In this document: one piece after another, positions 4,700 through 27,265 of the stretch
Numbering within the stretch: the stretch's first letter is position 1
How the letters are laid out: every line of letters starts with the position of its first letter
Origin: Gammaproteobacteria bacterium
GTDB lineage: Bacteria; Pseudomonadota; Gammaproteobacteria; SURF-13
Direction of reading: 5' to 3'
Length of the DNA stretch: 42,858 bases
Assembly (NCBI GenBank): GCA_003599485.1
Contig: QZKM01000001.1
Span: forward strand, 1-42,858
Position numbers and translations under genes: made by a program
The notes under the pieces: generated by a model
The model's database searches: none
What the model was told of the DNA's origin: nothing
Seen by the model: only the letters and a program-made list of their open reading frames with translations

Positions 4700-6010
4700 T
4701 CAAGGCACGCCCCCAATCATCCCCGCCGCGACGGTGTTGTTGCTGTGTTCGTCTATGACGATGAAGGCGCCGGTGGCGCGGTTGGCGCGGTAAGGGTCGC
4801 ACAGCAGCGGTTTTTGCGTCTTGACGCGCACGCGCGCGATGTCGTTCATCTTTAACTCCTGCGCCGGCGCGCGCTCCAGGGTGTTCATGTCCACCTTGTA
4901 TTCGATCTCCGGCAGCAGGGCTTTCACCGTGCGGGTGGTGTGCTTGATGAGGTATTTGCGCCCGGGTTGCAGCGGCTCTTCGCTCATCCAGCACAGCATC
5001 GCGTCCAGTTCCTTGCCGGCGCGTGGCGCGTTGTGCGGGTGGGTGAGCATGTCGCCGCGCGAGATGTCAATTTCATCGGTCAAGGTCAGCGTGACCGACT
5101 GCGGGGCCGAGGCTTCCGGCACGTTGCCTTCGTAGGTGACGATTTCCTTGATGCGGGTGCGGTGGCCGGCGGGCAATACGCTGATTTCATCTCCCACGCG
5201 CACCCGGCCCGACTCGATGCGCCCCATGTAGCCGCGGAAATCCGGCGACGTATAGGGAAGAGCGACAGCGAAGGGTTCTACTAGTGTCGCGGGAGGCAGG
5301 ATGCCGGGAGCGACCATACCCGAAGGGCGACACACGTACTGCACAGGGAAGCGGAAATCGCGCAGGTTGACGTCCTGCGCGATCTTGACCGTTTCCAGCA
5401 CGCCGAGCAGCGTTTCGCCCTGATACCAGGGCATGCTGGCGCTCTTTTCCACCACGTTGTCGCCGTTCATGGCGGAGAGCGGAATATAGCGTGCGTCCTT
5501 GATGCCGAGCTTATCGGCAAAGGCGCTGAATTCGGCGCGGATGGACTGGTAAACGTCTTGCGCGTAATTCACCAAATCCATCTTGTTCACCGCCACCACG
5601 ATGTGCGGGATGCCGAGCAGATGGGCGATGTAGGCGTGACGCCGTGACTGAATAAGCATGCCCTTGCGTGCGTCAATAAGTATGATGGCGAGATTGGCGG
5701 TGCTGGCGCCGGTCACCATGTTGCGCGTGTACTGCTCGTGGCCGGGGGTGTCGGCGATGATGAATTTGCGCCTGGGGGTGGCGAAGTAGCGGTAGGCGAC
5801 GTCTATGGTGATGCCCTGCTCGCGCTCGGCCTGCAGGCCGTCGGTGAGCAGGGACAAGTCCACGACGGCGCCACCACGGCGCTGGGTGGTGCGTTCGATG
5901 GCCTCCAGTTGATCCTCGAAGATGGACTTGGAATCGTACAGCAGACGCCCGATGAGCGTGCTCTTACCGTCGTCCACGCTGCCGGCGGTGGTGAAGCGCA
6001 GTAAATCCAT
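4700..6010 (-). CDS. cysN: Sulfate adenylyltransferase subunit 1 (GTPase)
   Basis: CysN is the GTPase subunit of ATP sulfurylase; GTP hydrolysis drives formation of APS from sulfate and ATP by CysD. The protein has 436 residues. G-motifs are clear: GSVDDGKS (10–17), DTPGH (G3) and NKMD (G4), followed by the translation-factor-like barrels. The start is the ATG sharing one base with the cysD stop (TAATG), so the pair is translationally coupled. The N-terminus lacks the roughly 25-residue lead-in of the E. coli protein. Residues 231–255 are an extra in-frame segment, GMVAPGILPPATL... to ...ALPYTS, that splits the normally contiguous motif QYVxRPxxDFRGY (see the repeat entry). Everything either side aligns without a frameshift, so the enzyme is probably functional. 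Confidence 0.95.
   Translation of the reverse strand: MDLLRFTTAGSVDDGKSTLIGRLLYDSKSIFEDQLEAIERTTQRRGGAVVDLSLLTDGLQAEREQGITIDVAYRYFATPRRKFIIADTPGHEQYTRNMVTGASTANLAIILIDARKGMLIQSRRHAYIAHLLGIPHIVVAVNKMDLVNYAQDVYQSIRAEFSAFADKLGIKDARYIPLSAMNGDNVVEKSASMPWYQGETLLGVLETVKIAQDVNLRDFRFPVQYVCRPSGMVAPGILPPATLVEPFAVALPYTSPDFRGYMGRIESGRVRVGDEISVLPAGHRTRIKEIVTYEGNVPEASAPQSVTLTLTDEIDISRGDMLTHPHNAPRAGKELDAMLCWMSEEPLQPGRKYLIKHTTRTVKALLPEIEYKVDMNTLERAPAQELKMNDIARVRVKTQKPLLCDPYRANRATGAFIVIDEHSNNTVAAGMIGGVP
5246..5323 (-). repeat. In-frame palindromic insertion inside cysN
   Basis: About 75 bases (25 codons) interrupt a conserved CysN motif: without them the protein would read QYVCRPSPDFRGY, which matches the E. 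coli pattern QYVNRPNLDFRGY position for position. The insert is flanked on both sides by the serine codon TCG. On the plus strand it contains the nested pairs gtcgc (5286–5290) with gcgac (5310–5314), and ggca (5295–5298) with tgcc (5302–5305), the intervening ggga being repeated symmetrically. This resembles protein-coding palindromic elements such as those of Rickettsia, but I see no second copy in this window. Confidence 0.6.
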
Positions 6011-6975
6011 TAAAAATAACCTTCGCGCTTGCGCAGTTCCATCGAAACCTCCGAGGTCTTGTCGTCCATGCGCGTGGCGCCGCGCTCGGTGATGCGCGTC
6101 GCGGCGGTTTCCCGGATGATCTCTTCCGGCGTCGCGGCGCTGGATTCCACCGGGCAGGTGCAGCTCATGTCGCCCACGGTGCGGAAACGCACCATGAGGT
6201 TTTTCACCTGCTCGCCTTCCTTGGGCTGCACCAGGTGCGACACCGGCAGCCAGCCTCCGCGCCATACCACGTCGCGCCGGTGGGCGTAGTAAATCTCCGG
6301 CACTTCCAGCTTTTCCTCCGCAATGTACTGCCAGATGTCCATCTCGGTCCAGTTGCTCAACGGGAACACGCGCATGTGCTCGCCGGGATGCACGCGGGTG
6401 TTGTACAGGTCCCACAATTCGGGGCGCTGGTTTTTCGGGTCCCACTGGCCGAACTCGTCGCGGAAGGAGAAGATGCGTTCCTTGGCGCGCGCCTTTTCCT
6501 CGTCGCGCCGCGCGCCGCCGAAGCAGGCGTCAAAGCCGAACTCCTGGATGGCGTCGAGCAGGGTTACGGTCTGGTGTACATTGCGGCTTTCATCCGGCCT
6601 GCGCAGCTTGACGCGGCCTTTGTCTATCGAATCCTGCACCGAGCGCACGATGAGGCGTTCGCCCAGTTCGGCGGCGCGCTTGTCGCGGAACGCGATCACC
6701 TCCGGGAAGTTGTGCTCGGTGTCTATGTGCATGAGCGGGAACGGGAAGCGGCCGGGACGAAACGCCTTTTCCGCCAGGCGCAGCATGACGATGGAATCCT
6801 TACCTCCGGAAAACAGCAGCACCGGATTTTTGCACTCGGCCGCCACCTCGCGCATGATGTGGATCGCCTCGCTCTCCAGTACCCGCAGGTGGGTGAGCGT
6901 TGCTGCGGACGTGGTGGACGATGAATTGTTCAGTGGTATGGCGTTCATTGTTAATGATTGCTTGTCTCTTGACAT
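6010..6975 (-). CDS. cysD: Sulfate adenylyltransferase subunit 2
   Basis: CysD is the catalytic subunit of ATP sulfurylase and adenylates sulfate to APS with CysN. It belongs to the PP-loop N-type ATP pyrophosphatase family: the loop is FSGGKDSIVM, followed by HIDTEHNFPE, FGGARRDEEKARAKER and RVFPLSNWTE, all hallmarks of CysD. The start chosen is the ATG at 6975, which has AGGAA five bases upstream and gives 321 residues; an internal ATG at 6948 would give 312 and aligns better with the shorter E. coli protein (302). A frame extending further upstream runs into a repeat and has no start signal. It overlaps cysN by one base. The 87-base gap to cysH holds two inverted repeats. Confidence 0.95.
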   Translation of the reverse strand: MSRDKQSLTMNAIPLNNSSSTTSAATLTHLRVLESEAIHIMREVAAECKNPVLLFSGGKDSIVMLRLAEKAFRPGRFPFPLMHIDTEHNFPEVIAFRDKRAAELGERLIVRSVQDSIDKGRVKLRRPDESRNVHQTVTLLDAIQEFGFDACFGGARRDEEKARAKERIFSFRDEFGQWDPKNQRPELWDLYNTRVHPGEHMRVFPLSNWTEMDIWQYIAEEKLEVPEIYYAHRRDVVWRGGWLPVSHLVQPKEGEQVKNLMVRFRTVGDMSCTCPVESSAATPEEIIRETAATRITERGATRMDDKTSEVSMELRKREGYF

Positions 6976-6984
6976 CCGTTTCCT

Positions 6985-7018
6985 ATCTCTCGCTCCCTTT
7001 CCCATAAGGGGAGAGGGA
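6985..7018. repeat. CCCTCTCC / GGGAGAGG-type repeat, copy 1
   Basis: The sequence ctccctttcccataagggg followed by agaggga is an imperfect hairpin in the leader of cysD. It belongs to the same CCCTCTCCC...GGGAGAGGG class as the next copy and lies just upstream of the cysD ribosome-binding site. Confidence 0.6.
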
Positions 7019-7062
7019 AGCTGCCCCAGCGCCATGTGCGCTCGTTGCCGGCGGAAAGGGCT

Positions 7063-7839
7063 CTATTTGACTCCCTCTCCCACCTGTGGGAATGGGCCGG
7101 GGAGAGGGTTCTCCCGACCGGCGGCCGTCTGCTTGACGTGCAGACCGCACTCCTTGGCGCTCTCCTGCTCCCACCACCAGCGCCCGGCGCGCTCATCTTC
7201 GCCGGCGCTGATGGCGCGCGTGCAGGGTGCACAGCCGATGCTCGCGTAACCTTTGTCATGCAGGACATTATAGGGGACGTCGAAGTGACGGATGTAGCTC
7301 CACACTTCGTCGCGCGTCCAGTCCGCCAGCGGGTTGAATTTTCTCAGACCGTGATCTGCGTCCCATTCCGACAACGCCAGGTCTTTGCGCGCCGCGGACT
7401 GCTGCCGGCGCAGGCCGGTAATCCAGGCCTTTTTGCCTTGCAGGGCGCGCTGCAACGGCTCCACCTTGCGCATGTGGCAGCACGCCTTGCGCAGCTCCAC
7501 GCTCTCGTAAAAGGCATTCGGCCCATGCTGGGCGACATACTGCTGCACCGCTTCGGCGCGCGGGGAATAGCTCGTCAAGCGGCGGCCATAACGGCCGCGA
7601 ATAAGCTGGATGAGCCGATAGGTCTCCTCCGGCAGGCGGCCGGTGTCGAGCGTGAAGATTTCTATCGCGGGCGCGTGCTTGCAGATAACGTCGGCAAGCA
7701 CCATGTCCTCGGCGCCCAGGCTGCTGGCCAGCGCGGCGGGCGCATGATCGCGCGCAATCTCCCGCAGCGCGTTTTCCAGCGCGGCGATTTTTTTCTCCAG
7801 GACGGAGGAGAGGCCAGCGGCTACGATGCGCTCAGGCAT
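7063..7839 (-). CDS. cysH: Adenylylsulfate (APS) reductase, assimilatory
   Basis: CysH reduces activated sulfate to sulfite with thioredoxin or a similar donor. It is a 258-residue PP-loop protein (SSLGAEDMV near 39–47; DTGRLPEET near 65–73). Cys120–Cys121 (ACCHMRK) with Cys203 and Cys206 (GCAPC) form the [4Fe-4S] ligand set of the APS-using type rather than the cluster-free PAPS type, in line with no cysC in the window. The catalytic cysteine is Cys231 in KECGLH. Normally the protein ends soon after this motif; here about 22 further residues (QTAAGRENPLPGPF...) are translated from a repeat. The start overlaps the end of the siroheme reductase gene by eight bases, indicating coupling. Confidence 0.94.
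   Translation of the reverse strand: MPERIVAAGLSSVLEKKIAALENALREIARDHAPAALASSLGAEDMVLADVICKHAPAIEIFTLDTGRLPEETYRLIQLIRGRYGRRLTSYSPRAEAVQQYVAQHGPNAFYESVELRKACCHMRKVEPLQRALQGKKAWITGLRRQQSAARKDLALSEWDADHGLRKFNPLADWTRDEVWSYIRHFDVPYNVLHDKGYASIGCAPCTRAISAGEDERAGRWWWEQESAKECGLHVKQTAAGRENPLPGPFPQVGEGVK
7072..7109. repeat. CCCTCTCC / GGGAGAGG-type repeat, copy 2, translated as the CysH tail
   Basis: The left arm tccctctcccacctgtggga and the right arm gccggggagaggg form a palindrome-like element. On the minus strand it is read through as the last residues of CysH (…NPLPGPFPQVGEG…), and the cysH stop codon lies just beyond it. Copy 1 is about 55 bases away in the same intergenic gap. Confidence 0.7.
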
Positions 7840-10207
7840 GAACCGCCGCCCGCGCCTTTTGCACGCGCACGCGCGTCAGCGCGCCGTCGGGATGCGCGTG
7901 CAGAATAACATGGCCTTCCTTCTGCAAACTTTCCGAGACCTGCTGCGCGGGGTCGCCCGGCTCGAGCAGAAAATCTATCACCGCGCCGCTGTCGAGCTTG
8001 CCGAGCTCGATGCGCGCGCGCATGAAGTGCACCGGGCAGGCGTAGGACGATAAATCCACGGTGGCGGTCACGTCTCCGCTGCCCGCGGCGGCGGGGCTTT
8101 GCGCCTTGGCCGCGCGCGCCTGGGCGGGCGCCACGTACACCGGCGTGTTGACAGGCGGCAGGGTGGCGGACAGATCAAGCTGTGGATCAAACGCCTCGCA
8201 GGCGCGCGCGGCTTGAGTCATCCACGCATCGAGCCCGGCCATGAGCGCGTTAAAGCGCGTCTCGTCCTGATGCTCTTTGAGCGCCGGCAACGCCTGCGCG
8301 ATCTCGGACAGCTTCATGGCGAGCGGCAGGTATTCCGGCCGCAATTCCTGCAATTGGGTGTGCACGTTCTGAGCGATGGCGGCGAGGTCATCAAGCGATT
8401 TCTGCCCGGTCACAAACAACAGCGACTGCCCGACCAGGCGAGCCATGGCTTCGGCGCACTCGATGGCGTCCGGCAGCTTGTGCTGGTAGATGAAGGCGTT
8501 ACGGCAGCTGCGCTCGTAGGCGGCCTCGGCGAAGCGCGAGGACACCAGTTCCTGCGCCGCGCCCGCGCACTCGCCGCCGCCGAGTTGCAACACCTTGAAG
8601 GCGCCCTGTTCACCGTGGTCGAGGAGCAGAGCGGGGACTTCTTCTGGAGTGACCACGGTGAGATCGGCGAGCAGCTCCTTGAAGGAGTCCTTGCCGCGCC
8701 GCCGCGTCCAGTGGAAAAAGCTCTCGCCGTTCACGCGCTCCTGCGCATACGCCTGTTGCACGCGCGCGATGGCGGTCTCCACGCGCTGCGCGGGCACCGA
8801 CACGCTCTTGAAACCCAGGCCGCCTCCGGCGCGCCCGTCGCCGCCGAAGTACATCTGATAGTGCGGCACCAGCTTGCCGTGCAGACGGTTGCCTTCACCG
8901 TAGATGCCGATGTCGCCGGTCTCCGGTTGCGCGCAACCGTTATGGCAGCCGCTGGCGCGGATGCGCAAGTCCGCCGCACCGCCGCTTAATTTCACGCCGA
9001 TGATCTTGGATGAGGTGATGCCCAGGCGGCAGGTGGAGGTGCCGGGGCAGGCGACTACGTCGTCGCCGGGTGTGGGTTCACTTAAGCCCAACGCCGCAAG
9101 CGCCTTGCGTATCGGCTCGATGCGCGCGTCCGGCACGTGCATCATCATCAGGTTCTGATCCTGCGTGGTGCGGATGTCGTTCAAGCCTTCATCGTGCATG
9201 ATTTTGGCAATGCCGCGCAGTTGCGCCGCGTTGATGTCGCCGATCTTGAGGCTGATGGGGAATACGTTCAGGCCGCGCTGCTTCTGCGCCAGCACCTCGC
9301 GCGGCGCACCTGCGCCGCAGGCCGGGCCAGACTGCGCCACACCGCTCCAGTCGCCTCTCGGATAGGGCTTGCCCGCGAACGCGGCTCTGGTGCGCGCGTA
9401 TTCCTCGCGGTATTTTTCCCGGAAACCGTCCGGCCCGAAACGATCCACCAGGAACTTGATACGCGCCTTGGCGCGCTTGACGCGATCGGAATAACGGTGA
9501 TGCAGGGAGACGATGGCCTCCATGCACGGCAGCAAATCCTGTTCCTCGATGAATTCCTCGACCACGATGGCCTCGTGCGGCTTGTGGCCGAGACCGCCGC
9601 CGGCCAGCACCTTGAAGCCGTAGCGCCCGTCTTTTTGCGCCGCCACCACGCCGAGGTCGTGCATCATGCCCTGCGCGCAGTCGTGCTCGCAGCCGGAGAA
9701 GCTGATCTTGAACTTGCGCGGCAGATGCTGGGTGAGCGGATGGCGCAGAAAGTGCGCCACCGCGCCGTCCAGCAGCGGCGTGATATCCAAGTGCTCGCGC
9801 GGACATACGCCGGCCAGCGGACAGGCGGTGATGTTGCGCACCGTGTTGCCGCACGCCTCGCGCGTGGTAAGCCCGGCCTGCGCCAGGTGCTTGAGCACCG
9901 CGGAGGTGTCGGCCGTGGGTACGTAGTGAATCTGGAAGTCCTGGCGCGTGGTGACGTGCACCACGTCGTGCTTGACGTACTGCTCCAGCACCTCGGCGAT
10001 GGCCACCAACTGATGCGGCAGCATCTTCCCGCCCGGCGCCTTGACGCGCACCATGTGCAGGCCATCCTGACGCTGGCCGTACACGCCCTGTTGCAGGCGC
10101 GCGGCCATGAAGCGGTCGGCATCCAGCTCTTTATTCAAAAAGGCGTGTACCGCCTGCTCGTAGCGCTCGATCTCGTCGTGATTGACCAGTACGCTCGATG
10201 GGTTCAT
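7832..10207 (-). CDS. Siroheme nitrite/sulfite reductase fused to a TusA-like domain
   Basis: This 791-residue protein is expected to reduce sulfite to sulfide, given its place next to cysH, cysD and cysN. Residues 1–~510 are a nitrite/sulfite reductase with the usual internal duplication. The first half has TTRQDFQIHY (87–96), Cys129/Cys135 (ACPLAGVC) and Cys173/Cys177 (SGCEHDC). The second half has TTQDQNLMMM (347–356), Cys387/Cys393 (ACPGTSTC) and Cys421/Cys425 (SGCHNGC). Each half therefore carries a full C-x5-C plus C-x3-C siroheme/[4Fe-4S] signature, whereas E. coli CysI has it only in the second half. A helical linker region (about 540–680) is followed by an Ala/Pro-rich hinge and a TusA-like domain (715–785) with YACPVHFMRARIELG (Cys724). 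No flavoprotein partner (cysJ) is nearby, so the electron donor is probably ferredoxin-like. The ATG has AGGAG upstream. Confidence 0.9.
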   Translation of the reverse strand: MNPSSVLVNHDEIERYEQAVHAFLNKELDADRFMAARLQQGVYGQRQDGLHMVRVKAPGGKMLPHQLVAIAEVLEQYVKHDVVHVTTRQDFQIHYVPTADTSAVLKHLAQAGLTTREACGNTVRNITACPLAGVCPREHLDITPLLDGAVAHFLRHPLTQHLPRKFKISFSGCEHDCAQGMMHDLGVVAAQKDGRYGFKVLAGGGLGHKPHEAIVVEEFIEEQDLLPCMEAIVSLHHRYSDRVKRAKARIKFLVDRFGPDGFREKYREEYARTRAAFAGKPYPRGDWSGVAQSGPACGAGAPREVLAQKQRGLNVFPISLKIGDINAAQLRGIAKIMHDEGLNDIRTTQDQNLMMMHVPDARIEPIRKALAALGLSEPTPGDDVVACPGTSTCRLGITSSKIIGVKLSGGAADLRIRASGCHNGCAQPETGDIGIYGEGNRLHGKLVPHYQMYFGGDGRAGGGLGFKSVSVPAQRVETAIARVQQAYAQERVNGESFFHWTRRRGKDSFKELLADLTVVTPEEVPALLLDHGEQGAFKVLQLGGGECAGAAQELVSSRFAEAAYERSCRNAFIYQHKLPDAIECAEAMARLVGQSLLFVTGQKSLDDLAAIAQNVHTQLQELRPEYLPLAMKLSEIAQALPALKEHQDETRFNALMAGLDAWMTQAARACEAFDPQLDLSATLPPVNTPVYVAPAQARAAKAQSPAAAGSGDVTATVDLSSYACPVHFMRARIELGKLDSGAVIDFLLEPGDPAQQVSESLQKEGHVILHAHPDGALTRVRVQKARAAVHA

Positions 10208-10235: not shown

Positions 10236-11003
10236 TCAATGCGCGATAAGCCTGAAGCCGACCAGCATCAACATGCTGGCGAGCGCAATGCGCAACACCT
10301 TCTCCGGGATATTGACGCTCAAGTGACTGCCGAGATAGATGCCTGGCAGCGAACCCAGCAACAGACTGCCCAGCAGCACGAAGTCCACGTTGCCCATGCC
10401 GAGATGCCCCAAACCCGCGACCAGGGTGAGCGGCACGGCGTGCGCGATGTCCGAGCCGACGATTTTTGTGGTGGCGATCAACGGATAGAGCAGAAACAGC
10501 GCGACCACGCCTATCGCTCCCGCGCCGATGGAGGTGAGCGTGACCAGCGCGCCCAGCACCGCGCCGGTAATGACGGTGGAGACGTTCAGGCTCGCCGGAT
10601 GAGAGCGCGTCTTGAACCAGGGATGACGCTGTAACTGCGTCTTGAAGATGAGCGCAAGCGCGGTCAGCATCACCGCCGCGCCGATAAGCGGCACGATAAT
10701 GACGTCCACCTTCCAGCCGCGCGCCTCCAGATAATGCAGCAGCAGCAAGGACAACAGCGACGCGGGCAGGCTGCCCGCGGCCAGCAGGCCGACAATGCGC
10801 CAGTCTACCGTTTTCTTTCTGGCGTGCACCCACACTCCGCCCACCTTGGTAATGCAGGCGAACAGCAGGTCGGTGCCCACCGCCTTCACCGGCGGGATGC
10901 CGAACAGGATCAAGAGCGGCGTCATGAGCGAACCGCCGCCCACGCCGGTCAAACCGACCAACAGGCCGACTACAAAACCCGATAAAGTATAGGCGAGATC
11001 CAT
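10236..11003 (-). CDS. TauE/SafE-family sulfur-anion permease
   Basis: This integral membrane protein of about 255 residues belongs to the TauE/SafE family (also called TSUP), known for transporting sulfite, sulfoacetate and related anions. The paired glycine-rich motifs GLLVGLTGVGGGSLMTPLL at the N-terminus and ALVTLTSIGAGAIGVVAL in the middle are typical, with about eight hydrophobic segments. The ATG at 11003 is chosen because it begins just before the first membrane segment and lies downstream of a plausible promoter; a GTG at 11039 would fall upstream of the predicted transcript start. It is first in the sulfate-assimilation operon, 28 bases before the reductase. It may import sulfate or export sulfite; direction cannot be told. 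Confidence 0.88.
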   Translation of the reverse strand: MDLAYTLSGFVVGLLVGLTGVGGGSLMTPLLILFGIPPVKAVGTDLLFACITKVGGVWVHARKKTVDWRIVGLLAAGSLPASLLSLLLLHYLEARGWKVDVIIVPLIGAAVMLTALALIFKTQLQRHPWFKTRSHPASLNVSTVITGAVLGALVTLTSIGAGAIGVVALFLLYPLIATTKIVGSDIAHAVPLTLVAGLGHLGMGNVDFVLLGSLLLGSLPGIYLGSHLSVNIPEKVLRIALASMLMLVGFRLIAH

Positions 11004-11041
11004 TGTAAGGGATGCACGTGGCGCAGAGAAATCTGACACGC

Positions 11042-11070
11042 AGTATAGCAGGAGCGTATATACTCATAAA
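11042..11070 (-). promoter_or_regulatory. Candidate promoter for the sulfate-assimilation operon
   Basis: On the minus strand, TATACT (11047–11042) lies 17 bases after TTTATG (11070–11065). The region is strongly A+T-rich compared with its surroundings and is shared with the divergent cysB promoter, so CysB binding here is likely by analogy with enterobacterial cys promoters. Confidence 0.5.
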
Positions 11071-11079
11071 AGAATATAA

Positions 11080-11109
11080 TTGTATATGTATATCGTTTTT
11101 TGTTATAAT
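11080..11109 (+). promoter_or_regulatory. Candidate sigma70 promoter of cysB
   Basis: TTGTAT (11080–11085) and a consensus TATAAT (11104–11109) are separated by 18 bases, ending 29 bases before the cysB ATG. It faces away from the permease promoter, with under 50 bases between the two –10 boxes and –35 boxes together, so one bound regulator could affect both. Confidence 0.6.
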
Positions 11110-11137
11110 AAGGCGGCCGGGAGGGCTTTATAACACC

Positions 11138-12061
11138 ATGAATCTACAGCAGTTACGCTACATCTGCGAAGTTGAGCGGCAAAACTTGAGCATCTCGCTC
11201 GCCGCCGCCAGCCTGCATACCTCGCAACCCGGGGTGAGCAAGCAAATCCACCTGCTGGAGCAGGAACTCGGCGTGCGCATCTTCGAGCGTAGCGGCAAGC
11301 GCCTGACCGGCGTGACCGCGCCGGGGCGCATCATACTCGCGCAGGCGAAAGAAGTGCTGCGCGATGTGCAGAACATCAGGCAGATCGGCACCGAGTTCAC
11401 CAACGAAATCGCGGGCAGCCTGTCCATCGCCGCCACTCACACCCAGGCGCGCTACGCGCTGCCCAGGGCAATCAAGCAATTCACCGGGCGCTATCCGCAG
11501 GTCAATCTGCACATTCACCAGGGCAACCCGACCCAGATCGCCGAGATGGTGGAGTCCGGCCTCGCGGACATCGGCATCGCCACCGAGGCGCTGGCGCTGC
11601 ATGAACAATTGGTGGTGATGCCCTGCTATCAATGGAACCGCTGCGTGGTCGCGCCGCCTGGCCACCCCATCCTGAAACAAAAAACGCTCACGCTGGAGGC
11701 CATCGCGCATTATCCCATCGTGACCTATGATTTCGCCTTCGCCGGGCGCTCGCTCATCAACAAGGCGTTCGAGGCGCGCGGCCTTACGCCCAACGTGGCG
11801 CTCACCGCGCTCGATTCGGACGTGATAAAAACCTATGTGGGACTCGGCTTAGGGATAGGCCTGCTCGCCAGAATGGCGTTTGATCCGGAACAGGACAAAA
11901 ATCTGCGCATGCGCGATTGCGCGCACCTGTTCGAACCCAGCACCACGCTGATCGCGGTGCGGCGCGGGACGTTTCTGCGCGGCTATATGTACGACTTCAT
12001 CGAGTTTTTCGCGCCGCATCTCACGCGCGAGACGGTGGATAAGGCAATGCAACGGGATTAA
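11138..12061 (+). CDS. cysB: LysR-family regulator of cysteine biosynthesis
   Basis: CysB activates sulfate-assimilation genes in response to O-/N-acetylserine and sulfur status. The 307-residue protein follows the CysB/Cbl pattern along its length: MNLQQLRYICEV, the recognition helix region TSQPGVSKQIHLLEQELG, GKRLTGVTAPG, then the ligand-binding domain with TTHTQARYALP-like (ATHTQARYALPRAIK), HQGNPTQIAEMV, ATEAL and PCYQWNR, and the C-terminal RRGTFLRGYMYDFIEFF. Codons upstream of ATG 11138 are open but not CysB-like; GGGAGG about a dozen bases before the ATG supports this start. It is divergent from the sulfur operon it probably controls. Its stop overlaps the convergent topA stop. Confidence 0.95.
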   Translation: MNLQQLRYICEVERQNLSISLAAASLHTSQPGVSKQIHLLEQELGVRIFERSGKRLTGVTAPGRIILAQAKEVLRDVQNIRQIGTEFTNEIAGSLSIAATHTQARYALPRAIKQFTGRYPQVNLHIHQGNPTQIAEMVESGLADIGIATEALALHEQLVVMPCYQWNRCVVAPPGHPILKQKTLTLEAIAHYPIVTYDFAFAGRSLINKAFEARGLTPNVALTALDSDVIKTYVGLGLGIGLLARMAFDPEQDKNLRMRDCAHLFEPSTTLIAVRRGTFLRGYMYDFIEFFAPHLTRETVDKAMQRD

Positions 12062-20159: not shown

Positions 20160-20724
20160 GGGTGTGGCATGGCTTGTTGTCCTGTGCCTGTGCGCCCCCG
20201 GCCTGGCGGCGCAGGAGGAACAGGGCTCCGCGCCACGGCGCTTTAGTGTGTTGCACGCGGACACCACACTGGTGGACGGCGTATACCTGCTGAACGCGCG
20301 CGTGGATTACCCGCTGGGCGAGGCTGCTGTGGAAGCCCTGCGGAGCGGCGTCACGCTCACCTTGCTGCTGGAGATCGAGGTGGAGCGTGAACGTACCCTG
20401 CTCTGGGATGCCGAATTGACCCGTCTCTCGCAGCGCTATGAACTGCGCTATCACGCGCTCACGCGCCGCTATCTGGTAAAAAATCTCAGCACCGGAGTGC
20501 AGCAGGCGTTCCCCGCACAGGAGGCGGCGCTGTCCGCCCTGGGCGAGATCAAGGATATGCCGCTGCTCGATGAGCATCTTTTGACCCCCGGCGCGAACTA
20601 CCACGCGCGTCTGCGCGCGCGGCTCGATCACTCCAGCCTGCCGGCCCCGCTGCGCCTCATCGCCTTGCTGTCTCCGGCCTGGCAAACGTCAAGCGAGTGG
20701 TACACATGGCCCTTGCAACACTGA
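20137..20724 (+). CDS. DUF4390 exported protein
   Basis: This 195-residue protein has a hydrophobic N-terminal segment (VAWLVVLCLCAPGLAA), likely a signal peptide, and the DUF4390 pattern: LVDGVYLLNARVDYPLGEAAVEALRSG, LLLEIEVERERTLLWD, RYELRYHALTRRYLVKNL. DUF4390 genes regularly sit between rsmB and ntrY, as here; the function is unknown, and a periplasmic partner of the NtrY sensor is a reasonable guess from position alone. The ATG at 20137 lies inside rsmB; a GTG at 20164, just after the rsmB stop, is an alternative start that would still leave the signal segment. Confidence 0.86.
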   Translation: MQSCANNRGVAWLVVLCLCAPGLAAQEEQGSAPRRFSVLHADTTLVDGVYLLNARVDYPLGEAAVEALRSGVTLTLLLEIEVERERTLLWDAELTRLSQRYELRYHALTRRYLVKNLSTGVQQAFPAQEAALSALGEIKDMPLLDEHLLTPGANYHARLRARLDHSSLPAPLRLIALLSPAWQTSSEWYTWPLQH

Positions 20725-22898
20725 AACATCCGCGCTTCGGCCTCGCGCTCATGATGGCGCTGCTCGCGCTGCTGCTGGGCTCGCTTCATTTAATGAGCAA
20801 CGTGACACAAAGCTCGGAGCAGTTCAGCCGCCTCTATCTGCCGCTGCTCGCGCTCAACGGCGTGGCGCTGGTCGCCTTGAGCGCGCTCATCGTGACCAAC
20901 CTGGCGCGCCTGTTGCGCCAGTTCCGGCAGGGCGTGGCCGGCTCGCGCCTCACGCTGCGCATGATGCTCCTGTTCGTCACGCTCGCGGTGGCGCCGGTGT
21001 CGGTAGTGTTTTACTTCTCGCTCGGTTTTTTACACCGCAGCATAGACAGCTGGTTTGACGTGCGCATCGAACGGGCCCTGGATGACGCCCTGGAACTCTC
21101 CCGCGTATCGCTGGATGCGCGCCTGAGCGAACTGCTCAATCAGACCGCAAGGCTGGTGCTGGAACTGGAAGGCGCGCCCGACGGCGCCGCGCTCAGCGTA
21201 CTCAACGAACTGCGCGCGCGCAGCAGCGCCGGTGAGTTGACGCTGTTTACCCAGAAGGGGCGCGTCATCGCATCAAGCGGCGGCGAGTTTTCCAGCATCG
21301 TGCCGGACACGCCGGGCGAGGCCATCCTGTTGCAGCTTGGCAAGGGACAGAATTACGTGGGGCTGGACCCGATCCGTGACACGGGCCTGCACGTGCGCGT
21401 GGTGGTCTCCGCTCCGCCGGGCGGCGCGGGCGAGGAACGGCGCGTGCTGCAGGCGTTGTTTCCCGTCGCCGCGCGCCAGAGCGAGCTGGCCGCCGGCGTG
21501 CAGGCGCAGGTTACCCAATACAAGCGGCTCGCCTATCTGCGCCAGCCGCTCAAGTACACGTTCACCGTGACCTTGAGCCTGGTGCTGGCGCTGTCCCTGC
21601 TGTCCGCGGTATGGGCGGCGTTCTTCTCCACGCGCCGCCTGGTGGCGCCGATCCGCGATCTGGCCGAAGGCACGCGCGCGGTCGCGGCGGGCGACTACAC
21701 CCTGCGCCTGCCCTTGCAAAGCAGAGACGAACTCGGTTTCTTGGTGATGTCATTTAACGACATGACGCAGAAAATCGCGCGGGCGCGCGACGCCCTCAAC
21801 CAGAGTCAACAGCGGGCCGAGGGCCAGCGCGCCTATCTGCAGGCGCTGCTGCAACATCTTTCCTCCGGCGTATTGACCCTGGATCACCAACAGCGCCTGC
21901 GCACCGCCAATGCCGCGGCGAGCGAATTATTGGGCATCGCGCTCGACGATCACGCCGGCACGCCGCTCGACACCATCGCCGAACGCCACCCGCGGCTCGC
22001 CGCCTTCATCGCAACCCTGCGTCACCATCTGGCCGCGCCGGCTGGCGAGTGGCGCGAAGAGGTGATTCTGGAAGGGGCGGGAACGCGCAAGATACTGCTG
22101 TGCCGCGGCACGGCCTTGCCCGCCACGGAGAGCGGGGGCGATTACCTGATTGTGTTCGACGACATCACCGCGCTGATCCAGGCGCAGCGCGACGCCGCAT
22201 GGGGCGAAGTAGCGCGGCGCCTGGCGCACGAATTCAAGAACCCGCTCACACCGATCCAGCTTTCGGCGGAACGCCTGCGCCACAAATATTTAAAGACGCT
22301 GGACGCCGGGGAGGGCGAGTTGCTGGACCGGCTCACCCATACCATCGTGCAGCAGGTGGAGGTGATGAAAGACATGGTGAACGCCTTCGCCGATTACGCG
22401 CGCAACCCGCCGTTGCAAACGCGTCCGCTTGATCTCAATCGCCTGATTAATGAGGTACTCGATCTGTATCGCGGCCAGCGCGCGCAGTTTCAGACTCGGC
22501 TTGAAGCCGGCCTGCCGCCGGTCGAAGCCGACGCTGGACGTCTGCGTCAGCTGCTGCACAACCTGATTAAAAACGCGCTGGAGGCGGCGCCGGACAGCCG
22601 CGCGCACATCACGCTGGAAACGCACAGCCTGCCTGGTTTCGTTGAACTCAGCGTGCGCGATCACGGCCCCGGCATACCAAAGGAAATCATGGCGCAACTG
22701 TTCGAACCGTACGTCACCACCAAGCCCAGGGGCACGGGGCTCGGCCTCGCCATCGTGAAAAAAATCGCGGAAGAGCACGGCGGCAGTTTGAGCGCGGAAA
22801 ATCCGCAGGACGGCGGCGCGCGGCTCGTGCTGCGCCTGCCTGTTTCCGCGGCGGCGCCTGACATGCAGCCTCTCCCGCATGAGGCGCGCACGTTATGA
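20706..22898 (+). CDS. ntrY: NtrY-type membrane sensor histidine kinase
   Basis: NtrY is the sensor of the NtrYX two-component system, linked in other bacteria to nitrogen, redox or envelope control. The 730-residue protein has several N-terminal membrane segments (about 10–105) with a periplasmic region, another membrane segment near 290, a HAMP domain (RRLVAPIRDLAEGTRAVAAGD), a PAS-like domain (HLSSGVLTLDHQQRLRTANAAAS) and a kinase core: H-box RRLAHEFKNPLTP (His508), N-box LIKNALEAA, and the G-boxes DHGPGIP and GTGLGLAIVKKI. The ATG at 20706 is preferred to a GTG nine bases before it. It overlaps DUF4390 by 19 bases and ntrX by 4. Confidence 0.95.
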   Translation: MALATLKHPRFGLALMMALLALLLGSLHLMSNVTQSSEQFSRLYLPLLALNGVALVALSALIVTNLARLLRQFRQGVAGSRLTLRMMLLFVTLAVAPVSVVFYFSLGFLHRSIDSWFDVRIERALDDALELSRVSLDARLSELLNQTARLVLELEGAPDGAALSVLNELRARSSAGELTLFTQKGRVIASSGGEFSSIVPDTPGEAILLQLGKGQNYVGLDPIRDTGLHVRVVVSAPPGGAGEERRVLQALFPVAARQSELAAGVQAQVTQYKRLAYLRQPLKYTFTVTLSLVLALSLLSAVWAAFFSTRRLVAPIRDLAEGTRAVAAGDYTLRLPLQSRDELGFLVMSFNDMTQKIARARDALNQSQQRAEGQRAYLQALLQHLSSGVLTLDHQQRLRTANAAASELLGIALDDHAGTPLDTIAERHPRLAAFIATLRHHLAAPAGEWREEVILEGAGTRKILLCRGTALPATESGGDYLIVFDDITALIQAQRDAAWGEVARRLAHEFKNPLTPIQLSAERLRHKYLKTLDAGEGELLDRLTHTIVQQVEVMKDMVNAFADYARNPPLQTRPLDLNRLINEVLDLYRGQRAQFQTRLEAGLPPVEADAGRLRQLLHNLIKNALEAAPDSRAHITLETHSLPGFVELSVRDHGPGIPKEIMAQLFEPYVTTKPRGTGLGLAIVKKIAEEHGGSLSAENPQDGGARLVLRLPVSAAAPDMQPLPHEARTL

Positions 22899-24265
22899 AG
22901 CGCGCCTACATTCTGGTGGTGGACGATGAGCCCGATATCCGCCGCCTGGTTCAGGAAATCCTGGAAGACGAAGGTTACGAAGTGCAGGCGGCGGAAAACG
23001 GCGCCGCCGCGCGCGAGAAACGGCGCACGCGCCGGCCCGACCTGATCCTGCTCGACATCTGGATGCCGGACGTGGACGGCGTCACGCTGCTCAAGGAATG
23101 GTCGGCGGAAGACGCGCTCGCCGTGCCGGTCATCATGATCTCCGGTCACGGCACGGTGGAAACCGCGGTCGAGGCCACGCGCCTCGGCGCGTACGACTTT
23201 CTGGAAAAGCCGCTGTCCATGGCCAAACTCCTGCTCACCGTGCGCCGCGCGCTGGAGGCGGACAAGCTGCGCAAGGAGAATCTCGGCCTGCGCCGGCACG
23301 TGGCCGCGGTTTCCGAACCCATAGGCAAAAGCGCCGTCATGCAACGTCTGCGCGAGCAGGCGCGGCGCATCGCGCAACACGACAGTTGGCTGCTGATCCG
23401 CGGCGAGCCGGGCAGCGGCAAAGAGGTGCTGGCGCGTCATATTCACTCGTTGAGCGCGCGCGGGGAAGGCCCGTTCGTGGAGGTGGGCGTGGCCTCTATC
23501 GCGCGCGAAAACGCCGCCACTGAGCTGTTCGGCGCGGAAAAGGAAGGCAAGGTGCACTTCGGCCTGCTGGAGCAGGCAAACGGCGGCACGCTGTTTCTGG
23601 ACGATATCGCCGACATGGCGCTCACCACCCAGGCGCCACTGCTCTCCGCGCTGGAGACCCAGTCCTTCCTGCGCGTCGGCGGCGCCGCGCCGGTGCGCGT
23701 CAACGTGCGCGTGATCGCCGCCACCCAGCGCGACCTGGCGCAGGAAGCCGCTGCGCACCGTTTCCGCGAAGACCTGTACTATCGCCTCAACGTATTGACG
23801 CTTGCCATACCCGCGCTGCGCGAGCACGGCGAGGACGTGCCCGAACTGCTCAATTATTACGTCAACTGGTTCGTCACCCACGAGGGTCTGCCTTACCGCA
23901 GTTTCACGGTGGCGGCGCAAAACCGGCTGCGCCATCACCCCTGGCCGGGCAACGTGCGCGAACTGAAAAACCTGGTGCAGCGCGTGCTGATACTGGGCAG
24001 CGGCGCGGAGATCGCCCTGGAAGAAGTGGAAACGGCGCTGGGCGCAGTGACTGCTCCACCCGCGGCGCCCGCCGGACCCGTGACCAGCGAATTCGACTTG
24101 CCGCTGCGCGAAGCGCGCGAGCGGTTCGAAAAGGCCTACCTCGAACACCACCTGCGCAAATCCGGCAGCATGGTCCAGCTCGCCCAGCTCACCGGCATGG
24201 AACGCACCCACTTATACCGCAAGCTGAAAAGCCTGGGAATCAACCCGAAACAGGAGTCGGATTAA
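22895..24265 (+). CDS. ntrX: NtrX-type response regulator without GAFTGA loop
   Basis: NtrX is the partner regulator of NtrY. The 456-residue protein has a receiver domain (acidic pair at 10–12, phospho-acceptor Asp54, Lys105 in EKPLS), an AAA+ domain with Walker A GEPGSGKE (170–177) and Walker B GGTLFLDD (230–237), and a C-terminal Fis-type helix-turn-helix (MVQLAQLTGMERTHLYRKLKSLGI in part). The region between ELFG (210–213) and GLLEQANGG is only about ten residues, so the GAFTGA loop that contacts sigma54 is absent, and the Walker B glutamate is replaced by aspartate. NtrX proteins are known to vary here; this one probably controls genes without remodelling sigma54. Confidence 0.93.
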   Translation: MKRAYILVVDDEPDIRRLVQEILEDEGYEVQAAENGAAAREKRRTRRPDLILLDIWMPDVDGVTLLKEWSAEDALAVPVIMISGHGTVETAVEATRLGAYDFLEKPLSMAKLLLTVRRALEADKLRKENLGLRRHVAAVSEPIGKSAVMQRLREQARRIAQHDSWLLIRGEPGSGKEVLARHIHSLSARGEGPFVEVGVASIARENAATELFGAEKEGKVHFGLLEQANGGTLFLDDIADMALTTQAPLLSALETQSFLRVGGAAPVRVNVRVIAATQRDLAQEAAAHRFREDLYYRLNVLTLAIPALREHGEDVPELLNYYVNWFVTHEGLPYRSFTVAAQNRLRHHPWPGNVRELKNLVQRVLILGSGAEIALEEVETALGAVTAPPAAPAGPVTSEFDLPLREARERFEKAYLEHHLRKSGSMVQLAQLTGMERTHLYRKLKSLGINPKQESD

Positions 24266-24304
24266 GGCAGAGAAAAGATACGACAGAAAAGATACAATGA
24301 CGCC

Positions 24305-25678
24305 ATGAAAATCATCATTCTCGGTGCGGGTCAGGTGGGGGCTTCGGTCGCCGGGGCGCTGGTGAGCGAAGCCAACGACATCACGGTGGTGGACACCGAC
24401 GTGAAGCGCTTGCAGGAGTTGCAGGTGCGGCTTGATCTTCGCACCGTGGCGGGGCAGGCCTCGCACCCGGAGGTGCTGTTGCGCGCCGGGGCGGAGGACG
24501 CGGACATGATTCTCGCCGTGACTAACAGCGACGAGACCAACATGGCGGCCTGCCGCGTGGCCGCGACCTTGTTCCACACCCCCACCAAGGTGGCGCGGGT
24601 GCGCGCCGTGGAGTATCTGAATTATCCGCAATTATTCTCCGCGCAGGCGTTTGACGTGGACGTGCTCATCAGCCCGGAGCAACTGGTCACCAATTACGTG
24701 CAGCGCCTGATCGAGTTTCCCGGCGCGCTGCAGGTGCTGGATTTCGCGCGCGGCCTGGTGCAGCTGGTCGCGGTGCGCACCTACCACGGCGGCCCGCTGG
24801 TGGGGCGCGAACTGCGCGAACTGCGCGAACACATGCCCGGCGTCGAGACGCGCGTGGTGGCGCTGTTCCGGCGCGGCCAGTCCATCGTGCCGCAGGGCGA
24901 CACGGTAATCGAGGCGAACGACGAGGTATTTTTCATCGCTGCCACCAAACACTGCCGCGCGGTGATGAGCGAATTGCGCAGACTCGACAATCCTTACAAA
25001 CGCATCACAATTGCGGGCGGCGGCAACATCGGCAAGCGTCTCGCCATGGCGCTGGAAAACGCCTATCAGGTGAAGCTCATCGAGCACAACGCGGGACGCG
25101 CGCGCGCCATCGCCGAGGAGTTGCACAACACCACGGTGCTGCACGGCGACGCCACCGATGAAGAACTGCTGCGCGAGGAAAATATCGAGGAATGCGACAT
25201 CTTCTGCGCGCTGACCAATGACGACGAGGATAATATCCTCTCCGCCATGCTCGCCAAGCGCCTGGGCGCGCGCAAGGTGATGGCGCTCATCAACCGCGCT
25301 GCCTACACCGACTTGATGGAGAGCGGCGCGATAGACATCGCCATCTCGCCCCAGCAAACCATGATCGGCAGCCTGCTCGCGCACATACGGCGCGGCGACG
25401 TGGCGGTGGTGCATTCCCTGCGGCGCGGCGCGGCGGAGGCCATCGAGGCGGTGGCGCACGGTGACCATAAGTCCTCGCACGTGGTGGGGCGCGCGATTGA
25501 AGACATCAAGCTGCCCGCCGGCGTCACCATCGGCGCCATCGTGCGCGGCGATCAAGTATTGATCGCGCATCACGACACCGTCATTCAAGCCGAGGATCAC
25601 GTGATCCTGTTCCTGGTGGACAAAAAACGCATCCATGAGGTGGAGCGTCTGTTCCAGGTGGGCGTGACGTTTATTTAG
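24305..25678 (+). CDS. trkA: Trk potassium uptake regulatory protein TrkA
   Basis: TrkA is the peripheral NAD(H)-binding subunit that gates TrkH/TrkG potassium uptake. The 457-residue protein is a tandem duplication of TrkA-N (Rossmann) and TrkA-C domains: MKIIILGAGQVGASVAGAL at the start and ITIAGGGNIGKRLAMALE near 236–253 are the two nucleotide-binding loops, with acidic ends of the second strands (VVDTD, LIEHN). The ATG is preceded by a purine-rich stretch (gagaaaagatac, twice) rather than a clear Shine–Dalgarno. It forms a pair with trkH downstream. Confidence 0.96.
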   Translation: MKIIILGAGQVGASVAGALVSEANDITVVDTDVKRLQELQVRLDLRTVAGQASHPEVLLRAGAEDADMILAVTNSDETNMAACRVAATLFHTPTKVARVRAVEYLNYPQLFSAQAFDVDVLISPEQLVTNYVQRLIEFPGALQVLDFARGLVQLVAVRTYHGGPLVGRELRELREHMPGVETRVVALFRRGQSIVPQGDTVIEANDEVFFIAATKHCRAVMSELRRLDNPYKRITIAGGGNIGKRLAMALENAYQVKLIEHNAGRARAIAEELHNTTVLHGDATDEELLREENIEECDIFCALTNDDEDNILSAMLAKRLGARKVMALINRAAYTDLMESGAIDIAISPQQTMIGSLLAHIRRGDVAVVHSLRRGAAEAIEAVAHGDHKSSHVVGRAIEDIKLPAGVTIGAIVRGDQVLIAHHDTVIQAEDHVILFLVDKKRIHEVERLFQVGVTFI

Positions 25679-25806
25679 AAACAGGGGAAAGATACAAGGG
25701 AAAAGGGCAAAGGGGAAAAGAAACATGATTTCGTCCAGCATCAGCCGTGCCTTGCTTAATTTATTCTCTTTTCCCTTTTCTCTTTTTCCTTTTCCCCCGT
25801 ATTCGT
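25679..25806. repeat. Purine/pyrimidine-rich hairpin repeat between trkA and trkH
   Basis: The left part (25681–25723) is almost all purine, with aggggaaa, gatacaaggg, aaaagggcaaagggg and aaaagaaac. The right part (25763–25800) is almost all pyrimidine (ttctcttttcccttttctc, then tttttccttttcccccgta). Together they make an imperfect hairpin with about 40 unpaired bases between the arms. The same modules build the repeat between gspE and gspF. Confidence 0.72.
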
Positions 25807-25810
25807 AGTC

Positions 25811-27265
25811 ATGCAATTCCTCGTCATCCAGCGCATCATGGGCCTGCTGCTGATGCTGTTCAGCCTTGCCATGCTGCCCTGCATCGCGCTTTCGTGGTTC
25901 GACCAGGACGGCGGTTTTGCGCCGTTTCTCAAGGCCGGCCTCATTACGTTCGTGACGGGCTTTCTGCTGTGGCTGCCGGTGCGCCGCCAGGTCAAGGAAT
26001 TGCGCACGCGCGACGCATTCGTCATCGTGAGTCTGTTCTGGGGCTTGCTCGCGCTGTTCGGCGCGCTGCCTTTCCAGTTTGTCGGCACCACTACCCACAT
26101 GGTGGACGCCTATTTCGAAACTATGTCGGGGCTCACCACCACCGGTTCCACGGTGCTGAGCGGCCTCGATCATCTGCCTCCGTCCATGAATCTGTGGCGC
26201 GGCATTCTGCAGTTTCTGGGCGGCATGGGCATCGTGGTGCTGGCGGTGGCGATCCTCCCCATGCTGGGCGTGGGCGGCATGCAGCTCTACAGGGCCGAAA
26301 CGCCGGGGCCGATGAAGGAAAGCAAGCTCACACCGCGCATCAAGGAGACCGCCAAAGCCCTGTGGTTTATTTATCTCGGCCTTACGGTTGCCTGTATGCT
26401 CGCCTTGTGGCTGGCCGGTATGACGCCGTTTGACGCCCTGTTTCACAGCTTCACTTCGGTCGCCACGGCCGGTTTTTCCACGCATGACGCGAGCATTGCT
26501 TACTTCAACAGCCCCGCCATTGAGATGATACTCACGCTGTTCATGTTTTTAGGCGGCGCGAGCTTCACGCTGCATTTTCTGGCGTTTCGCGGCCGCACCT
26601 TGCGCCATTACTGGCAAGACACCGAGTTCCGCATCTACGCCGCCATCCTGGCGACGGCCACGCTGGCGACCGCGCTTTATCTGTATATTTCCGCGACCTA
26701 CTCCGATCCGCTCCAGGCGTTACGCTATGCGCTGTTTCAGGCGGTCAGCCTGGCCACCACAACGGGTTATACCAGCGCCGACTATGTGGCATGGCCGCCC
26801 GTGCTCGGCGCACTGCTTATCATCCTGAGCTTTTGCAGCGTCTCGGCGGGCTCTACCGGCGGCGGTATGAAGGCCGTGCGCGCCGTGCTGCTGTTCAAGC
26901 AAACCTTGTGCGAGATACGCCGCCTGATTCATCCGCATGCCTTGGTGCCGCTGAAACTCTCCGGCAAGGTGGTGCCGGAGCGCGCCATCGCCGCGGTGTC
27001 GGCCTTCTTCGCCACCTATCTCGCCAGCTTCGCCCTCATCGCGCTTGCTCTCGCGGCGATGGGCGTGGACCTCGTCAGCGCCTTTGGCGCGACGGCGGCC
27101 TCGCTCAACAATCTGGGGCCCGGCTTGGGCATCGTGGGCCCCGCGCTCAACTACGCCAGCCTGCCCGAAGCGGCCAAATGGCTGCTGTGCTTTGCCATGC
27201 TCATCGGGCGTCTGGAATTGTTCACCCTGTTCGTGATCTTGACTCCGGCCTTCTGGCGCAAGTGA
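25811..27265 (+). CDS. trkH: Trk potassium transporter membrane subunit
   Basis: TrkH is the potassium-translocating membrane subunit of the Trk system. The 484-residue protein has the four pore-loop repeats with selectivity-filter sequences: TTTGSTVLSG, SVATAGFSTHD, ATTTGYTSAD and SLNNLGPGLG, each between membrane helices. It is 132 bases downstream of trkA, its usual partner. There is no Shine–Dalgarno next to the ATG; the bases before it are the pyrimidine arm of the hairpin repeat, while the purine arm contains several GGGGA-like stretches further up. Confidence 0.96.
   Translation: MQFLVIQRIMGLLLMLFSLAMLPCIALSWFDQDGGFAPFLKAGLITFVTGFLLWLPVRRQVKELRTRDAFVIVSLFWGLLALFGALPFQFVGTTTHMVDAYFETMSGLTTTGSTVLSGLDHLPPSMNLWRGILQFLGGMGIVVLAVAILPMLGVGGMQLYRAETPGPMKESKLTPRIKETAKALWFIYLGLTVACMLALWLAGMTPFDALFHSFTSVATAGFSTHDASIAYFNSPAIEMILTLFMFLGGASFTLHFLAFRGRTLRHYWQDTEFRIYAAILATATLATALYLYISATYSDPLQALRYALFQAVSLATTTGYTSADYVAWPPVLGALLIILSFCSVSAGSTGGGMKAVRAVLLFKQTLCEIRRLIHPHALVPLKLSGKVVPERAIAAVSAFFATYLASFALIALALAAMGVDLVSAFGATAASLNNLGPGLGIVGPALNYASLPEAAKWLLCFAMLIGRLELFTLFVILTPAFWRK

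Follow-up and report, generated by a model that had tools for sequence, protein, structure and literature searches.

According to the published picture of assimilatory sulfite reductases, as given in the excerpted text of PMC10229431, two single-centre copies of a siroheme reductase unit were fused and one half then lost its cluster motif, leaving one siroheme-[4Fe-4S] centre. Mycobacterium tuberculosis NirA (1zj8), plant nitrite reductase (NiR), and PA4130 of P. aeruginosa have such a fused, duplicated core, with a set of basic residues in the first half and the cluster motif in the second. PA4130 is described as a nitrite reductase whose activity on sulfite is minimal (PMC8092218, in the portion available). 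CysI of the E. coli type serves sulfate assimilation and works with CysJ, DsrAB consists of two chains with inserted ferredoxin domains, and Fsr is a homodimer in which each chain comprises a single half plus an F420 oxidase domain, every half having a siroheme. In the excerpts of PMC10229431, the siroheme of Fsr is held mainly by positive side chains from one protomer, and the neighbouring cluster is bound by the other; Arg355, Arg423, Lys460, and Lys462 of Fsr are given as perfectly conserved across sulfite reductases, and assimilatory enzymes add an Arg at 388.

The window analysed here, a stretch of 42,858 nucleotides from a gammaproteobacterial genome, encodes a further protein of this kind, hereafter the SiR protein, in a single open reading frame. 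The initial annotation had read it as a siroheme-reductase-type protein, probably of a subfamily, with all the cluster ligands present in each half, and the analysis supports this. The gene and its parts are as follows.

7832-10207 (-), entire gene, 791 aa, for a duplicated sulfite/nitrite reductase core followed by GECA tail, HEPN-fold domain, and TusA domain
8678-10177 (-), SiR core, residues 11-510, both halves, from matches to solved structures
8561-8575 (-), GECA tail, residues 545-549, including C547 (8567-8569), from motif conservation
8165-8557 (-), HEPN-fold helical domain, residues 551-681, from a fold match to 2hsb
7850-8077 (-), TusA domain, residues 711-786, including C724, from PF01206 and fold matches

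Pfam finds NIR_SIR_ferr (PF03460) on two stretches, NIR_SIR (PF01077) over cut-off in the first half, and a C-terminal TusA domain (PF01206, 33.9 bits, cut-off 28.6) with its CP motif, C724 followed by Pro; the second NIR_SIR copy, in the second half, scores 23 bits, below cut-off. The two halves of the core align with each other by profile (probability 99.5%, E 4e-22), and Pfam, this alignment, and the fold together give two NIR_SIR_ferr plus NIR_SIR units. An AlphaFold2 model drawing on 72 relatives has high confidence (mean pLDDT 91.1, pTM 0.83). In this predicted structure, the core (residues 11-510) matches M. tuberculosis NirA (1zj8_A; Z 40.4, 475 aligned residues, 2.7 Å) and E. coli CysI (1aop; Z 31.3, 414 aligned, 3.1 Å), the nearest solved folds being NirA and plant NiR. 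Residues 551-681 resemble the HEPN-domain protein 2hsb (Z 14.3, 122 aligned, 2.5 Å), at a Z that just exceeds the warning level of about 13 for helical bundles; Pfam HEPN has no match in the SiR protein itself and is over cut-off in two relatives (L070 and L092). The predicted fold of residues 711-786 matches the TusA-type structures 8k1r_A (Z 12.0, 76 aligned, 2.3 Å) and 3lvj_C (Z 11.0).

The protein falls short of the curated models for CysI (TIGR02041, 117.9 bits against a cut-off of 756.55), NirA (NF007126, 226 against 523; NF007125, 211.2 against 594), DsrA (TIGR02064, 32.9 against 392.85), and DsrB (TIGR02066, 23.1 against 341.5). No Pfam ferredoxin match, such as the inserted domain of DsrAB would give, was found in it. 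Its fold and predicted chemistry are those of the known siroheme sulfite/nitrite reductase superfamily, with the cluster motif in the second half and the basic sulfite-binding set in the first, as in NirA, plant NiR, and PA4130. It resembles CysI in fold, in the residues of the catalytic centre (site A), and in a probable role in sulfate assimilation, at 22-23% identity over the aligned core. With Fsr it shares the fold and, by the excerpts of PMC10229431, the C-x5-C and C-x3-C motif and the R, R, K, K sulfite set.

The gene lies in a sulfate-assimilation operon, with a permease gene upstream, CysH, CysD, and CysN downstream, and a divergent CysB-type regulator.

7063-7839 (-), CysH, APS-reductase type (TIGR02055, 264.4 bits, cut-off 235.3)
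6010-7035 (-), CysD (TIGR02039, 432.3 bits, cut-off 396.6)
4700-6445 (-), CysN (TIGR02034, 592.4 bits, cut-off 336.1)
10236-11039 (-), TauE/SafE-type permease (PF01925, 162.1 bits)
11012-12061 (+), CysB-type regulator, divergent (NF009327, 489.8 bits, cut-off 402)

The CysH and SiR genes overlap by 8 bases, and CysN likely starts near 6016, the listed frame beginning upstream of that point. Elsewhere in the window, 20697-27265 and 35560-37572 hold ordinary genes: a sigma-54 two-component pair, TrkA with TrkH, and a GspD-type secretin.

In the organism's own genome (G000; 1.69 Mb, estimated 96% complete), the one other NIR_SIR protein is of the NirB type, and no further SiR was found. The genome encodes a siroheme-synthase-type protein (match of 114 bits), and the TusA domain fused to the SiR protein is its sole TusA match. 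No match to FAD_binding_1 (PF00667, CysJ-type) was found in this genome at its estimated 96% completeness, and thus no CysJ-type partner of the sort with which CysI works. Among 80 relative loci, a CysH homologue lies nearby in 52, CysD in 39, CysN in 38, CysB in 23, and TauE in 14, many of these loci being truncated by contig ends. In two Nitrosospira genomes, no open frame other than that of the SiR-type protein has NIR_SIR matches. The operon, the genome survey, and the Nitrosospira cases together indicate that the SiR protein is most likely an assimilatory sulfite reductase, which would probably supply sulfide for cysteine synthesis. As a separate observation, at one Mariprofundus locus (L079, 8310-10949) the SiR gene is directly followed by an 879-aa frame that combines a sodium:sulfate symporter domain with a weak match to radical SAM.

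The cysteine positions first proposed are exact in both halves, as are their C-x5-C and C-x3-C spacings and the motifs that precede them, TTRQDF at residues 86-91 and TTQDQN at 347-352. From first to last, the cysteine codons cover 8933-9823 (-), within the 8906-9830 originally marked.

9677-9823 (-), first-half quartet C129, C135, C173, C177 (predicted extra [4Fe-4S], site B), from conservation
8933-9049 (-), second-half quartet C387, C393, C421, C425 (ligands for the cluster of site A, the catalytic centre), from conservation

In a first sample of relatives, nine of 56 genomes (own included) had a complete first-half quartet, and two more had gene fragments. We then counted the quartets in a scan of genome contigs with two peptide patterns free of all eight cysteines, which gave at least 592 stretches, of which the best 80 loci (L033-L112) were kept. 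Among the 81 relative open reading frames of these 80 loci, the second-half quartet is complete in 81 and the first-half quartet in 77, more than chance would give; the set is biased toward the scan patterns and the best-scoring loci. The four exceptions read DCCH (L104), ESSA (L106), CSCH (L110), and CDCC (the second copy in L096). In L096 (3660-7264, Methylomirabilota), two SiR genes stand in tandem, one CCCC and the other CDCC in the first half.

A wider set of 159 rows was drawn from 192 loci, leaving out 17 repeats or other NIR_SIR genes of the searched genomes. The second-half quartet is complete in 157 of the 159. Ninety-two fused rows carry four cysteines in the first half (L031, of the NirB type, was left out of these); that all eight cysteines occur in 92/92 is circular, as these rows were chosen for their cysteines, the unbiased count being 77/81. 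Among the remaining 61 full-length fused relatives, conservation at 90% or more is confined to the four second-half cysteines. SiR-HEPN and SiR-HEPN-TusA proteins annotated as nitrite/sulfite reductase make up the subfamily of the SiR protein, in Nitrosospira, Gallionella, Nitrospira, Nitrospina, Mariprofundus, and others; the relatives of the genome scan come from, among others, Nitrosospira, Nitrosomonas, Gallionella, Nitrospira, Nitrospina, Mariprofundus, Magnetospirillum, Acidobacteria, Latescibacterota, and Methylomirabilota. Thirty-three pattern matches fell in viral contigs, none of them a relative of the SiR protein, and 11 phage records, among the matches listed, covered no more than 63% of the query at below 60% identity. 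Cys119 was considered as a mark of the subfamily and rejected, being Cys in 91 of the 92 four-cysteine rows and also in 38 of 65 other rows.

The contrast with known enzymes proposed at the outset holds for the sequences compared: Salmonella CysI, of the E. coli type, keeps at most one of the four first-half cysteines (CEPD), and three aligned tobacco NiR chains have no Cys at these positions. The single-cluster protein L131, by its neighbours the PA4130 locus, likewise has no first-half quartet, and, unlike the SiR protein, it has no GECA tail and is just 557 aa long. The first-half positions do align with the cluster cysteines of the second half and of DsrA (all four present) and NirB. DsrAB, by the excerpted text of PMC10229431, also carries cluster ligands on both pseudo-twofold sides. 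A second [4Fe-4S] cluster in the first half is well supported as a prediction from conservation.

The initial annotation had gone further and suggested that a single chain might bind two siroheme-[4Fe-4S] centres. Because the siroheme is anchored mainly by basic residues of one half and its cluster by the other, a second siroheme would call for such residues in the second half, at the mirror positions of those in the first.

9707-10048 (-), basic residues R54, R88, R124, K165, K167 (predicted siroheme/sulfite anchors, site A), from alignment and comparison with Fsr
8963-9259 (-), second-half mirrors P317, D350, D382, D413, R415 (decayed pocket, site B), from profile alignment and counts

R54, R124, K165, and K167 match the four sulfite-binding residues of Fsr and R88 matches its Arg388, all in the first half; the profile alignment of the halves pairs R54/R88/R124/K165/K167 with P317/D350/D382/D413/R415. 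In the 93 rows whose first quartet is complete (the 92 fused rows and the NirB-type L031), residues 54, 88, 124, 165, and 167 are Arg or Lys in 92, 92, 93, 93, and 93 rows, and the mirrors 317, 350, 382, 413, and 415 in 0, 0, 8, 1, and 47. No mirror is basic in 39 rows, one in 52, two in 2, and three or more of the five in none, and Asp or Glu prevails at 350 and 382. Across the 92 fused rows, 16 positions in the first half are Arg or Lys at 90% or more, vs. 4 in the second. Lys167 was also tried as a marker of sulfite reduction and rejected: it is Asn in aligned wild-type tobacco NiR chains and most NirA-like rows read RRRKN, but L131 (by its neighbours PA4130, a nitrite reductase according to the available text of PMC8092218) has Lys.

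We find the cysteine half of the two-centre proposal and not its siroheme half: cluster ligands are present in both halves, basic anchors in one, and a canonical second siroheme at site B is unlikely on these alignments. On balance we favour a ferredoxin-dependent assimilatory sulfite reductase with one catalytic siroheme-[4Fe-4S] centre and one siroheme-free cluster kept as a relic. Sequence, conservation, predicted fold, and operon are shown directly; the two clusters, the lack of a second siroheme, the electron donor, and the role of site B are inferred. Sulfite from the ATP sulfurylase and APS reductase encoded next to it would be reduced at the single centre, site A, where siroheme and sulfite would sit in the basic pocket of the first half and the cluster on the cysteines of the second. 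At site B, the first-half cysteines would carry a second [4Fe-4S] cluster, siroheme-free because the second-half pocket for that siroheme has decayed. Site B may descend from an ancestor that was fused and had two centres, and may have been retained because it transfers electrons or stabilises the protein; a siroheme-free cluster there may lie too far from the siroheme of site A for fast electron transfer. The electron donor is probably ferredoxin, given the lack of a CysJ match in the genome and the precedent of PA4130.

The main alternative, that one chain holds two siroheme-[4Fe-4S] centres with the second structural as in DsrAB, appears unlikely. It would account for the conservation of all eight ligands, and in DsrAB a non-catalytic siroheme or sirohydrochlorin does persist beside the active one (PMC10229431, excerpts); mirror 415 is also basic in 47/93 rows. 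Against this, at most two of five mirrors are basic in any of the 93 rows, and the second half of the SiR protein keeps one, while DsrB of G056, whose chain type holds the structural siroheme in DsrAB, keeps three (T, R, G, R, K, judged by eye). The prevalence of acidic residues at 350 and 382 and the 4 conserved basic positions against 16 weigh the same way. A siroheme at site B could be anchored by residues outside the mirror set.

The first-half sets of related proteins are graded: CCCC; C[D/T/H/S]CC, among NirA-like proteins, a haloarchaeal NirA being one of them; CSCH, seen in Thermus oshimai; DCCH; ESSA; and DAAR and similar sets, in the common proteobacterial single-cluster proteins. 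The NirA-like group with three of the four cysteines (L127, L130, L139, L150, L153, and L157-L165) could hold a site-differentiated or three-iron cluster. A tree was prepared from the 148 rows that remained after removal of 11 incomplete or atypical loci and of rows with fewer than 380 filled columns; these were thinned by identity to 86 and, after removal of L187 (long branch), to 85; the nine trait columns were excluded. On this tree the four-cysteine state needs at least 7 changes, a count that does not separate gain from loss. A single clade for all four-cysteine rows was rejected (34 rows vs. 51, p-AU 0.00015), so that repeated loss of the ligands is probable. The single-cluster proteobacterial clade that includes L131 nests beside Nitrospirota four-cysteine proteins (96/96), on a long branch. 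We infer that loss of the first-half ligands is likelier than gain, because DsrA and NirB carry cluster cysteines at these positions and repeated regain of four is implausible. Three planctomycete SiR-CysH fusions (L183, L186, and L188; Pfam PAPS_reduct was seen in L183) have the reverse pattern, with Arg at all five second-half mirrors and no first-half Cys, and this complementary loss suggests an ancestor with both pocket and ligands.

A variant we consider quite unlikely turns the SiR protein into a self-contained, sulfur-delivering enzyme, in which zero-valent sulfur would pass from siroheme to C547 and on to C724, like DsrC for DsrAB, with little free sulfide released and the second cluster feeding or gating electrons. 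That the GECA tail and the TusA domain take over sulfur is the more speculative part of our account. A GEC motif follows the core in 88 of the 92 four-cysteine fused rows, vs. 22 of the 61 other full-length rows; three of the four rows without it have frames that break or end early, the fourth being L175. In short members the GECA tail is the very C-terminus (e.g., GRGECAV in T. oshimai; L032), and its conserved C547 is reminiscent of a swinging-arm cysteine. A fused TusA domain occurs in 45 of the 92 four-cysteine rows vs. 6 of 65 others, two of which (L008 and L009) are fragments of the SiR protein's own kind. According to the available part of a 2026 study, four assimilatory sulfite reductases yield zero-valent sulfur as their direct product, and that part names no assimilatory carrier (PMC13188885); a relay from siroheme to C547 and C724 would fit this claim.

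It is more doubtful still that the first-half cysteines bind no cluster and instead coordinate a different metal or serve as redox or sulfur-carrying thiols. The partial sets in related proteins (C[D/T/H/S]CC, CSCH, and DCCH) need not be clusters, but the first-half spacing is that of the catalytic motif, and the positions coincide with the cluster cysteines of the other half, DsrA, and NirB. Least probable is nitrite as the cellular substrate: NirA and plant NiR are the nearest solved folds, and the nested single-cluster clade contains the PA4130 locus, a ferredoxin-dependent nitrite reductase (PMC8092218, available text) with the same basic set as the SiR protein, so the fold does not fix the substrate, yet the operon is one of sulfate assimilation, the genome has a NirB-type protein and no other SiR was found in it, the NirA-type models stay far under cut-off, and M. 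tuberculosis NirA is itself called a sulfite reductase in the title of a reference within PMC8092218.

In line with the initial annotation, no biochemical description of the subfamily turned up in full-text searches of open-access papers, in which we found no fused sulfite reductase with both clusters, nor its TusA or HEPN fusion. The predicted function of the SiR protein is ordinary; its predicted cofactor layout is unusual and informative. Set against the published course of fusion followed by loss of one cluster motif, the SiR subfamily looks like an intermediate step, fused and with ligands in both halves, its second siroheme pocket already decayed. Related proteins show the next steps (three cysteines, partial sets, and none), and the planctomycete group shows the opposite loss, with the pocket kept and the ligands gone. 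The fused TusA domain bears on the zero-valent-sulfur claim of 2026, for which the available text of PMC13188885 gives no known carrier. The order of the losses becomes testable with living enzymes.
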